A stretch of 41,298 nucleotides of DNA from an uncultured Opitutaceae bacterium. GTDB lineage: Bacteria; Verrucomicrobiota; Verrucomicrobiia; Opitutales; Opitutaceae. Positions 7,533 to 34,306 of this stretch are shown one piece after another. Within the stretch, counting starts at the first letter, position 1. The number at the start of each line of letters is the position of its first letter. Below the pieces are notes generated by a model. The model was given only the letters and a program-made list of their open reading frames with translations, was not told where the DNA came from and did not search any database. Location: NCBI GenBank assembly GCA_903891325.1, contig CAITEC010000108.1:1-41298 (forward strand), written 5' to 3'. The position numbers and the translations under genes were made by a program.

Positions 7533-7677
7533 CAATAGCCCGGGAATACCCCCTGCGCCGCTCCACTGCGCAAGGCCCGATCTGGTCGCCAGACCGCCGT
7601 CCAGCCTCATGGGTGGACGGCAAAAGGCGACCAATGAGCTCCGTTAATGCGGCTCCGGAGGTATTCCCGGGCTATTG
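7533..7677 (-). repeat. Structured palindrome-ended element, copy 1 (nested stems)
   Basis: This lies in the 517-bp gap between mnmE and mnmG. The ends are a perfect 18-bp inverted repeat (7533-7550 CAATAGCCCGGGAATACC, 7660-7677 its complement). Inside are nested stems TGGTCGCC/GGCGACCA and GCCGTCCA/TGGACGGC around a 10-nt loop. Read on the minus strand, the core (about 90 nt after the left arm) is nearly the same as the element at 22734-22887, while the outer arms are unrelated to that copy's arms. Stem differences between copies are compensatory (T-A to C-G, A-T to C-G). It could be a structured RNA, or a mobile core inserted in a palindrome. The remaining sequence of this gap at 7397-7532 shows nothing recognisable. 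Confidence 0.8.
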
Positions 7678-7701
7678 AGTGCAATTGGAGGGGGGATTGC
7701 G

Positions 7702-7750
7702 GCAGAAACCTGAAACCTGAGACCTGAAACCTGAGTCGATCCTTCAAACT
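7702..7750 (+). repeat. Heptamer repeat (AAACCTG family) with GTCGATCC tail
   Basis: The sequence is built of 7-nt units AAACCTG, AAACCTG, AGACCTG, AAACCTG, preceded by GCAG and followed by AGTCGATCCTTCAAAC. The same GCAG-heptamer block recurs between genes at 18994, 19545, 31140, 32667 and 33997, and in reverse at 19623-19662. The long tail is shared only with the 19545 and 19623 copies. No coding role is seen here. Confidence 0.75.
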
Positions 7751-9342: not shown

Positions 9343-9444
9343 AATGTAGCCGGGGTCCCAGACCCCGGCCGGCCTCGGAGAGGCCGGGGATTGGTGATCA
9401 GAAATAGGGCCCCAAGCACCGGGGTCTGGGACCCCGGCCACAAT
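9343..9444 (+). repeat. REP-like element with inverted terminal hairpins (full copy)
   Basis: About 100 bp between the YceH gene and mnmE. The left end TGTAGCCGGGGTCCCAG and the right end (complement TGTGGCCGGGGTCCCAG) form 24-bp near-perfect terminal inverted repeats, and each end is itself the palindrome CCGGGGTCNNNGACCCCGG. A GGCCTC/GAGGCC hairpin lies between. The layout of two inverted REPs around a spacer is that of REPIN/MITE-like elements. Related units occur at 7819-7884, 19036-19062 and 19598-19621. Confidence 0.75.
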
Positions 9445-17507: not shown

Positions 17508-18992
<1,485 letters not shown>

Positions 18993-18993
18993 G

Positions 18994-19029
18994 TGCAGAA
19001 ACCTGAAACCTGAGACCTGAAACCTGAAA
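18994..19029 (+). repeat. Heptamer repeat (AAACCTG family)
   Basis: GCAG followed by AAACCTG/AGACCTG units, starting 2 bp after the gltD stop. The same block order is seen at 7702. It abuts a CCGGGGTC hairpin at 19036. Confidence 0.7.
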
Positions 19030-19035
19030 ATGGTC

Positions 19036-19062
19036 GATGGTGCCGGGGTCGCTGACCCCGGT
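19036..19062. repeat. CCGGGGTC hairpin (REP-like half-unit)
   Basis: GCCGGGGTCGCTGACCCCGG forms a perfect stem with a 3-nt loop, of the same family as the ends of the 9343-9444 element. It lies just upstream of the DUF5069 gene. Confidence 0.6.
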
Positions 19063-19076
19063 CCGGACTCACGCCA

Positions 19077-19538
19077 ATGCCTTCCAAGCCGATTCCGGGG
19101 TCCACGGGGGTGGTGCTGACTTGCCTGCCTTCGCCTTATGTGGCGCACGGGGCGACGGGGCTTCTCTATTTGCCCCGGTTCATCGCAAAAATCCGGTATG
19201 TGAAGGAGCACGGGGCGCTGCCGGCGAGTTATGCGAAGAATTTCAAGCGGGGGCTCGACCGGTTTCTCTGCATGCACCTGGGCGTTGAACCGGACGCGGT
19301 CGAGAAGATCGTGCGCGAGGCGGCCGACGACGCGGCGGTCGATGCCGGGCTGGCGGCGCTCTTCCCAGCGGATATTCGCGCGGCGCGCTGGAACCGGGAC
19401 CTCGCGCAGAAGGGGCTGACACCGGCCGGCCAGGAATTCCTGAAGGAGGCGCTCACCGCCATGGGCTGCGCCGACCGGGTCGGCGAGATCCGGACAGTCC
19501 CGGACCTCATCGACTTCGACGAGGGCAGGATAGAGTAG
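19077..19538 (+). CDS. DUF5069 family protein
   Basis: This 153-residue soluble protein is of the DUF5069 type, recognised by GLLYLPRFIAKIRYVKEHGALPASY followed by a KRGLDRFLCMHLGV segment and a short C-terminal alpha-helical part ending VPDLIDFDEGRIE. The family is frequent in Verrucomicrobia and has no assigned function known to me. The start is the only ATG before the conserved region. It is flanked on both sides by heptamer and CCGGGGTC repeats, so it looks transcriptionally alone. No signal peptide, membrane segment or catalytic motif is visible. Confidence 0.75.
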   Translation: MPSKPIPGSTGVVLTCLPSPYVAHGATGLLYLPRFIAKIRYVKEHGALPASYAKNFKRGLDRFLCMHLGVEPDAVEKIVREAADDAAVDAGLAALFPADIRAARWNRDLAQKGLTPAGQEFLKEALTAMGCADRVGEIRTVPDLIDFDEGRIE

Positions 19539-19544
19539 GCTCTT

Positions 19545-19660
19545 GCAGAAACCTGAAACCTGAGTCGATCCCCCAAACCCTGAGGCCCGCTGTCCGATGT
19601 GGCCGGGGTCCCAGACCCCGGGGTTTGAAGGATCGACTCAGGTTTCAGGTTTCCAAGTTT
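19545..19660. repeat. Composite inverted repeat: heptamer arms around a CCGGGGTC hairpin
   Basis: The left arm is GCAG plus AAACCTG units and GAGTCGATCC (19545-19571). The right arm is its complement, GGATCGACTCAGG followed by TTTCAGG units (about 19629-19655). Between them lies TGTGGCCGGGGTCCCAG with its complementary half (19598-19621). The whole can fold into a long hairpin, MITE-like. The right arm forms the last codons and the TGA stop of the gene at 19638-20705. Confidence 0.7.
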
Positions 19661-22733: not shown

Positions 22734-22887
22734 CAAAAACAGGCCCGATAAGCCCTCCGGAGCGGCACTAGCGGAGCTCATTGGCCGCCTCTTGCCGTCC
22801 CCCCATGAGGCGGGACGGCGGTGTGGCGGCCAGATTGGGCCTTGCGAAGCGACCGCCGCGAAGGGGGGCTTATCGAGCCTGTTTTTG
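22734..22887 (+). repeat. Structured palindrome-ended element, copy 2 (nested stems)
   Basis: Second copy of the element at 7533-7677, in the 376-bp gap between peroxiredoxin and the delta-60 gene. The arms are 22734-22755 and 22866-22887 (22 bp, one mismatch), unrelated to the arms of copy 1. The core from about 22756 matches copy 1 over about 90 nt with some ten differences. The nested stems are TGGCCGCC/GGCGGCCA and GCCGTCCC/GGGACGGC around loop CCCATGAGGC; both stem changes relative to copy 1 keep pairing. The right arm ends in GCCTGTTTTTG and could work as a terminator. The flanks 22651-22733 and 22888-23026 hold no recognised motif. Confidence 0.8.
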
Positions 22888-32666: not shown

Positions 32667-32688
32667 GCAGAAACCTGAGACCTGAATT
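32667..32688 (+). repeat. Heptamer repeat fragment
   Basis: GCAGAAACCTGAGACCTGAA stands directly before the palindrome at 32690. It is of the same family as 7702 and 18994. Confidence 0.65.
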
Positions 32689-32689
32689 T

Positions 32690-32762
32690 GGGTGGAGCGC
32701 GATCTCCGAGCGCGCTGAGCGACGATAGCCCAAGTCAGCGCGCTCGGAGATCGCCTCCACCC
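32690..32762. repeat. Palindromic element (GGTGGAGCGCGATCTCC family), copy 1
   Basis: Left arm 32690-32718 and right arm 32735-32762 are complementary over about 28 bp with a 16-nt loop (GCGACGATAGCCCAAG). The element ends 7 bp before the purC stop. The left arm and loop start match the element at 34079-34155, on the other side of purC. It may serve as a bidirectional terminator for cinA and purC. Confidence 0.75.
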
Positions 32763-32769
32763 CAATCGA

Positions 32770-33687: not shown

Positions 33688-33730
33688 TAGCCGACCCATC
33701 CCGCGCAAGGTCGTCAAGCGCCGAGCCACC

Positions 33731-33790
33731 ATCCCCGAAAATCCTTGCTCGCAACCTCCCACGAGGTAGGTTGCCCGGCTCGGCATTCCG
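33731..33790 (+). repeat. 58-bp direct repeat, copy A
   Basis: CATCCCCGAAAATCCTTGC through GGCTCGGCATT matches 34168-34226 with about six differences. It contains the small hairpin CCTCCCACGAGG. In copy B the block lies immediately before tRNA-Glu. Here a 160-bp palindromic element separates it from a tRNA-Glu fragment. Confidence 0.8.
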
Positions 33791-33950
33791 CCCGGAGATT
33801 TCACGAAGCACGGGCGAATCTCGGCCAAATTGCGGGCATAAAAGCCCTCATGCTCCCTCGATGGCCTAGTGAGGCCACCTTCGGTCGCCTTCGGCCTTTT
33901 CTGCTCCACAATTTGGCCGATCTTCATCCCGTTTTCGTGAAATCTCCGGG
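33791..33950. repeat. 160-bp palindrome-ended element (MITE-like)
   Basis: Left arm 33791-33832 and right arm 33909-33950 are 42 bp each and complementary at most positions, with ends CCCGGAGATTTCACGAA and TTCGTGAAATCTCCGGG. The 76-bp interior has no coding capacity. It lies exactly between repeat copy A and the tRNA-Glu fragment, an interval that is absent at copy B, so it looks like an insertion. Confidence 0.75.
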
Positions 33951-33953
33951 CTG

Positions 33954-33986
33954 GTCCCCATCGTCTAGCCTGGCCCAGGACACCAC
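33954..33986 (+). pseudogene. 5' fragment of tRNA-Glu
   Basis: These 33 nt are identical to the first 33 nt of the intact tRNA-Glu at 34229 (acceptor 5' strand, D arm and start of the anticodon stem). The match then breaks into unrelated sequence and a heptamer repeat. It is not a functional tRNA. Confidence 0.9.
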
Positions 33987-33996
33987 GCGTTTCTTC

Positions 33997-34027
33997 AGAG
34001 ACCTGAAACTTGAGACCTGAAACCTGA
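33997..34027 (+). repeat. Heptamer repeat (AAACCTG family)
   Basis: GAGACCTGAAACTTGAG followed by ACCTGAAACCTGA lies about 10 bp beyond the break point of the tRNA-Glu fragment. It suggests that this repeat family sits at a rearrangement junction. Confidence 0.65.
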
Positions 34028-34078
34028 AAAAGGATCAAGGCGATTGGGCACAGGATAGATTCAATATGGCGCAATTCC

Positions 34079-34155
34079 GAGGTGGAGCGCGATCTCCGAG
34101 CGCGCTGAGCGACGATAGTCCCAAACCAGCGTGCCCGGAGGTCCCGCTCCACCTC
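34079..34155. repeat. Palindromic element (GGTGGAGCGCGATCTCC family), copy 2
   Basis: The left half (GAGGTGGAGCGCGATCTCC, GAGCGCGCTGAGCGACGATAG) is the same as at 32690. The right half has drifted (CAGCGTGCCCGGAGGTCC) but still pairs imperfectly. Copies 1 and 2 flank purC. Confidence 0.7.
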
Positions 34156-34167
34156 GGAGCCACAAGC

Positions 34168-34226
34168 CATCCTCGAAAATCCTTGCCCGCTACCTCCCAC
34201 GAGGTAGGTTGCCGAGCTCGGCATTT
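34168..34226 (+). repeat. 58-bp direct repeat, copy B (upstream flank of tRNA-Glu)
   Basis: See copy A at 33731. This copy ends 2 bp before the 5' end of tRNA-Glu, so it is part of the native tRNA upstream region that was duplicated. Confidence 0.8.
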
Positions 34227-34228
34227 GG

Positions 34229-34306
34229 GTCCCCATCGTCTAGCCTGGCCCAGGACACCACCCTTTCACGGTGAGAACCGGGGTTCGAATCCCCGTGGGG
34301 ACGCCA
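34229..34306 (+). tRNA. tRNA-Glu (anticodon TTC)
   Basis: Acceptor stem GTCCCCA (34229-34235) pairs with TGGGGAC (34296-34302). Discriminator G and an encoded CCA end follow (34304-34306). The anticodon TTC is at 34265-34267 in loop CTTTCAC, and the T arm is CGGGG-TTCGAAT-CCCCG. The outermost anticodon-stem pair is a C-A mismatch. Sequence layout matches bacterial tRNA-Glu. The 3' end (34282-34306) was used as an attachment site: the same 25 bp recur at 36477. Confidence 0.95.

Follow-up and report, generated by a model that had tools for sequence, protein, structure and literature searches.

A dispersed nested hairpin repeat with partly copy-specific outer arms in an uncultured Opitutaceae bacterium

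The window, which is the whole analysed stretch of 41,298 nucleotides from an uncultured Opitutaceae bacterium (contig CAITEC010000108.1), contains two long nested hairpins with similar cores and dissimilar outer arms, each arm pairing with its own partner. The question raised by this locus is what kind of element keeps such arms paired. Two-sided stem changes are commonly taken to prove that an RNA is functional. Here these changes are strong, but the scarcity of wobbles and the decoupling of arms from core point to copying at the DNA level, and about twenty replicate stems in one genome offer material in which template switching can be separated from selection on pairing. In the preferred reading, to which a probability of about 0.45 is given, both hairpins belong to a dispersed MITE-like repeat that is restricted to this lineage and apparently non-coding; template switching maintains its arms, and its core is exchangeable.

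Structure, copy number and distribution

Element A is located on the minus strand at 7533–7677, between mnmE and mnmG, and element B on the plus strand at 22734–22887, between a redoxin-domain gene and a divergent DUF5122 gene (neighbours identified by Pfam). The first-pass annotation, made from the sequence of the window, had proposed nested hairpins at both places, and folding bears this out, with minimum free energies of -95.5 kcal/mol for A (z -9.1) and -104.4 kcal/mol for B (z -9.4); none of 200 shuffled sequences folded as well in either case. The core is bounded by a GNA trinucleotide and a partner GNA, which together form a symmetric three-by-three internal loop. Measured from GNA to GNA in the core alignment, it comprises 103 nt in A (7554–7656, minus) and 104 nt in B (22759–22862, plus), and 87 of the 104 aligned columns are identical. 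The 17 differences and these lengths replace the earlier estimates of about ten differences over about 90 nt. According to the arm-pair analysis, the 5' outer arm of A (7657–7677, minus; 21 nt) and its 3' outer arm (7533–7553, minus) form 20 Watson-Crick pairs and one T.G pair. The corresponding arms of B (22734–22758, plus, 25 nt; and 22863–22887, plus) form 23 Watson-Crick pairs, one T.G and one C.A. Each arm was thus rightly said to pair with its own partner, over 21 and 25 pairs, respectively, not the 18 and 22 bp given at first, and the two sets of compensating changes reported in the nested stems are both present in A and B.

The annotation recognised two copies, but the window's own genome (G000; 3.29 Mb in 140 contigs) holds about 21 loci, as counted from a DNA search, a covariance model, and split and interrupted copies. 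The DNA search identified 20 places, among which are fragments and two cross-matches between the arms of A. The first covariance model, built from 14 copies, gave 20 matches: 15 to family I, each at least 119 bits, one to a truncated copy, three to a second subfamily with a longer centre (38–47 bits), and one reverse-strand reading. A further copy seems to be split between two contig ends, whose arms pair at 36 of 39 positions. Each copy spans about 145–200 nt and consists of a core, the GNA/GNA internal loop and an outer stem of 20–38 pairs; the core is about 103 nt in family I and longer in the second subfamily.

One copy in G000 (L018) is interrupted by another repeat. It was considered as an autonomous element and rejected: part of its interior matches other places of the genome, and the interior is therefore regarded as another repeat. 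The gene before L018 lacks the stop position of its relatives. At L080 4070–4302, the interior of a copy is replaced by another repeat of G000, and the preceding gene extends beyond the end point seen in relatives, with its stop lying in the arm.

Distribution of the element is narrow. The 14-copy model had matches in two of 38 genomes of the order. When a broader model of 19 copies was applied to 252 family genomes, matches came from G000 and from four places in a same-genus relative (G011); the other 250 genomes gave no match under its stricter filters, which can miss weak matches. The covariance search proposed with the annotation therefore did uncover further homologues. In collection scans with a sequence pattern that recovers 15 of the 20 known copies, genome_contigs yielded the contig of G011 and one Pseudohoeflea place, which was judged by eye to be a chance match, and viral_contigs yielded no match at this sensitivity. 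Rfam searches of the window at the gathering score returned a tRNA only, and five loci searched down to E 1 had no match.

Pairing and descent of arms and cores

Changes that keep pairing extend over the whole family. In a structure-fitted alignment of 19 copies, 22 pairs have two-sided changes as compared with 7.3 in shuffles, and 97.3% of the cells are paired; in an unfitted MAFFT alignment, two-sided changes are found in 10 of 36 pairs. Beyond the fifth outer-arm pair, 510 of 529 cells in 23 copies are Watson-Crick, a perfection somewhat overstated by the local alignment used to set the arm ends, which trims mismatches. The exceptions are five G-U, three A-C, nine other mismatches and two gaps, so wobbles in the outer arms are no commoner than other departures from pairing, and the excess that marks an RNA stem is not seen there. 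For these counts L097 was dropped, its 3' GNA not being placeable, and the truncated copy L014/L036 was left out. The inner five arm pairs do have a wobble excess (100 Watson-Crick, 14 G-U, no A-C and one mismatch). In all 14 of these wobbles the T is on the 5' side, and in each of 20 copies the wobble-bearing strand (plus) gives a better fold than its complement. It is probably this strand that works as a single strand, more likely as DNA than as RNA.

Homology between arms was assessed in 136 pairs of 17 G000 copies, with positions counted from the core and the best of the shifts -1, 0 and +1 taken. Agreement is 69% at positions 6–10 and 71% at positions 11–15, as against 38% and 44% in shuffled arms, with none of 200 shuffles as high. 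Positions 16–20 show weak likeness (z 3.9), positions 21–25 are at chance (z 1.0, 55 pairs), and positions 26–29 are slightly above it (z 2.9, 36 pairs; 2 of 200 shuffles as high). The arms are homologous near the core and copy-specific further out. The proposal that they share no sequence consequently describes positions 21–25 well and positions 6–15 wrongly; for A and B, 10 of 17 aligned arm columns agree, which decides nothing for this pair alone. Departures from the arm consensus at positions 6–15 comprise 34 transitions and 28 transversions in 20 G000 copies, which argues that arm change does not proceed mainly by the G-U route. Arms of G011 copies fit the G000 arm consensus, and different cores (family I, second subfamily and G011 type) sit in arms of this one consensus. 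Within G011, arms agree with one another at 0.68–0.91 and cores at 0.73–0.87 (six pairs). Arms there are as conserved as cores, and the contrast between the two is seen in G000 only. A local palindrome within each arm was also considered and rejected, own halves scoring 3.57 and the halves of other copies 3.57 (1154 of 2000 permutations as high).

Cores and arms were compared in 15 family I copies (105 pairs), L018 being left out of core comparisons. Core identity averages 0.86 (0.75–0.98) and arm identity, at positions 6–20, 0.59. The two similarities are nearly uncorrelated (rank correlation rho 0.09; Mantel 277/1000). In controls, a 15-nt slice of the core compared with the rest of the core gave rho 0.51 (3/1000), and the 5' core compared with the 3' core gave rho 0.50 (0/1000). 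Simulated arms that were inherited together with the core and evolved at three to eight times its rate gave mean rho of 0.45–0.58, with at most one of 200 runs per rate as low as observed. The 12 pairs with cores at least 93% alike have arm identity of 0.62 and the rest 0.59, a difference expected from the simulations to be about 0.2. For example, the cores of L005 and L008 are identical at 100 of 102 positions and their arms are 61% alike. The low correlation, taken with the simulations, indicates separate histories for cores and arms. In the simulation no arm site is constrained; since the signal would fade earlier in arms tied to a consensus, constrained co-inheritance is only made less likely. 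A recombination or conversion footprint within the cores was not significant (108 of 2000 permutations). This result and the equal conservation of arms and cores in G011 both count against the preferred reading.

Genomic setting and possible origins

Gene context was obtained with a simple codon-score gene caller, the orientation of L008 coming from an overlapping gene call. Nineteen copies (18 from G000 and one from G011) are intergenic, in 10 divergent, seven tandem and two convergent gaps. The right-hand gene is on the strand of the element in 17 of 19, a weak count because ten of those gaps are divergent, where the same strand is automatic, and only tandem pairs inform. In the tandem gaps of G000, the element runs with the genes in eight cases to none (the seven tandem cases and L018), and of three further G011 copies two run with the genes and one does not. 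Together, elements between tandem genes are co-directional in 10 of 11 cases, the G011 share being 2 to 1, which is only suggestive of a bias in element orientation.

Insertions are specific to the lineage. The mnmE–mnmG gap is without the element in all 11 same-genus loci read, and six of eight further loci tried are empty in two to four relatives each. Target site duplications were not obvious by eye in the flanks, the ends of the element being such that they cannot be fixed. An insertion shared with G011 was considered for L038 and L096, both near pgm (recognised by eye from its start), and rejected, as they occupy different gaps and run in opposite directions. At three loci, with genes similar to rplM, rpmH and obg (identified by eye from their N-terminal residues), promoter hexamers seen by eye just downstream of the element are common to element-free relatives. 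The element therefore lies upstream of the promoter there and outside the leader of the downstream gene, and a role as its 5' leader was rejected, since at these loci the promoters lie between element and gene. A conserved promoter was not seen by eye in the left flanks. In the right flanks of L001, L037 and L038, and partly of L002, L012 and L013, the motif CGCTAAC or CGCTA was noted by eye just outside the 3' arm; it was not seen in the G011 copies.

The preferred reading accounts for the arms by copying of DNA. Near-perfect arms, the lack of a wobble preference and transversions almost as frequent as transitions fit such copying better than drift under RNA pairing. One arm would be rewritten from the other, either by template switching in replication or by fold-back synthesis during movement of the element, and through this rewriting a change in one arm would turn up in both. 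Template switching creates and maintains perfect hairpins with multi-base compensatory change, as described in the sections consulted of PMC8794818. The present element resembles those hairpins in its perfect stems, its multi-base two-sided changes and the DNA-level explanation; the cases in these sections are RNA and protein-coding genes, unlike the dispersed repeat with many copies in one genome found here. Hairpins maintained by template switching are also the subject of PMC8604942. Cores, for their part, may pass between resident hairpins by ectopic conversion or an equivalent exchange, the arms staying with the site. From the decoupling of core and arm it follows that the core now in a hairpin is often not the original one of its arms, which leaves two routes: conversion of cores between copies, or movement of the core itself. 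The first, as conversion or exchange among hairpins already in place, is favoured because the arms share a consensus in two species, unlike arms derived from the target, and because the parts searched contained no bare hairpins of that consensus. Core exchange requires a sharp boundary near the GNA loop, for which the basis here is the fall in arm similarity alone.

In a stronger and decidedly tentative form, the element would be a mobile hairpin of two parts, in which the core is a GNA-bounded cassette exchanged between, or inserted into, resident hairpins, and the site-bound arms are continually re-made as perfect complements, one arm serving as the template for the other by way of a single-stranded DNA intermediate. 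In that case the "terminal repeats" would be no inherited part of the element.

A structured non-coding RNA, an option already put forward from the two copies, is unlikely. In this alternative the core is conserved, selection on the closing stem acts on its pairing only, and the genes have multiplied in the lineage. The two-sided changes described above favour it, as do the preference for one strand, which carries the U.G wobbles of the inner arm and core and gives the better fold in all 20 copies, and the co-direction with tandem genes. The proposal is weakened by the outer arms, where wobbles are no commoner than other mismatches, and by the difference between core and arm histories. It is also at odds with the position upstream of promoters shared with element-free relatives at three loci, the lack of a conserved promoter seen by eye in the left flanks, and the lack of an Rfam match.

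Insertion of a mobile core into hairpins already at the site, the outer stem being resident DNA, is a little less probable again. The part of this earlier proposal that gives the core its own history agrees with the uncorrelated core and arm similarities, and the occurrence of family I, second subfamily and G011-type cores in arms of one consensus is in its favour too. It also calls for outer palindromes without a core, the check suggested with the annotation, and these were not found in the G000 places or in the relatives' loci examined. The consensus hairpin pattern occurs at 20 places in G000 and nine in the control, and the 15 of these 20 places that were examined extend by at most five more pairs. 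In the relatives' loci scanned (about 173 kb), no long near-perfect inverted repeats other than the G011 copies were found. With the exception of one 18-bp hairpin at L080 9631–9669, the short-gap hairpins in the G000 loci scanned are parts of other repeats. A half-arm motif is found 13 times in G000 as against five in the control reading, six relatives being near their controls, and none of the 13 is convincingly matched by a partner arm (best score 23).

An ordinary MITE or insertion-sequence remnant, with terminal repeats merely evolving faster than the core, is improbable, and the objection raised to it from the two copies holds in the larger set. The element is dispersed, intergenic and lineage-specific, with empty sites in relatives, and it forms an imperfect palindrome, all of which would suit a MITE. 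Terminal inverted repeats common to the copies and inherited with the element were not found, however: the arms are homologous near the core only and do not follow it, and faster arms inherited with the core would have given the correlations of the simulations and not the one observed. Y1 was the only transposase type sought, and its genes do not track the element. Their numbers in five genomes are six in G000, none in G011, one in G012, none in G009 and three in G002; the element occurs in G000 and G011 only, so that Y1 is absent from a genome with the element and present in the element-free G002.

That the arms arose through inverted duplication of flanking target DNA when the element inserted is doubtful to a slightly greater degree. 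It would account for arms that are near-perfect, variable in length and copy-specific in their outer half, but not for an arm consensus common within and between two species. The arms moreover match upstream regions of relatives little better than they match shuffles (mean z 0.48 over 18 comparisons, two at p ≤0.025, with data from six of eight genes, none from L009 and L002), a comparison limited by divergence. A transcription terminator is hardly credible: element B ends in a T tract after its GC stem and is called terminator-like on both strands, but A is not called, five consecutive T at the arm end were not seen by eye in any other listed copy, and ten of 19 copies lie between divergent genes.

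Relation to known repeats and other repeats of the window

ERIC consists of one long stem-loop, according to the sections consulted of PMC2267715. The element is similar to ERIC, bcr1 and Correia in being a dispersed intergenic hairpin of 100–200 nt that is lineage-restricted and non-coding. Copies of these MITE-like or palindromic bacterial repeats share terminal repeats, whereas in the present element each copy has outer arms of its own, which do not follow the core. REP/REPIN elements go with Y1 (RAYT) transposases. They resemble the element as bacterial palindromic repeats in one strand sense, and Y1 genes are present in G000. REPs are, however, 20–40 bp in the parts consulted of PMC3733652, as compared with about 145–200 nt here, and the Y1 genes do not follow the element. 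The hairpin elements of mitochondrial genomes, among them the double-hairpin elements and RHE, are likewise mobile-looking repeats made of hairpins, but they belong to another genetic system. Exchange of cores between site-bound hairpins, if it takes place, would be a mode of spread for which we know of no bacterial example. The sections consulted of the literature on template switching, REPs, MITEs, hairpin elements and mitochondrial hairpins (including PMC8794818, PMC6649704 and PMC2267715) contain no bacterial repeat with copy-specific perfect arms and a separately inherited core, which is a weak absence.

Other repeats occur in the window. A palindrome at 33790–33951 has 19 places in the genome and provides a contrast, its ends being conserved in the copies not cut by contig ends or truncated; it is flanked by CTAG-like sites (by eye). 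At 33729–33991 it lies between a 59-nt repeat and a partial tRNA-Glu copy, and at 34167–34306 an intact tRNA-Glu (TTC) is found with the same 59-nt repeat and tRNA pieces adjacent. The interrupted arrangement and the adjacent one make a natural pair of filled and empty sites. A repeat built on CCTGAAACCTGA is present at 7693–7734, 18986–19027, 19536–19577 and 33986–34027, often with an inverted partner near by, and matches the genome at many places. REP-like TGTAGCCGGGGTCCCAGACCCCGG repeats with a GTAG start are located at 9344–9368, 19037–19061 and 19597–19621, in a genome with six Y1 transposase genes. The hairpins at 32688–32765 and 34076–34158 have a 41-nt stretch in common (98%) and outermost arms that are different yet paired, a small case of the same pattern as in A and B.
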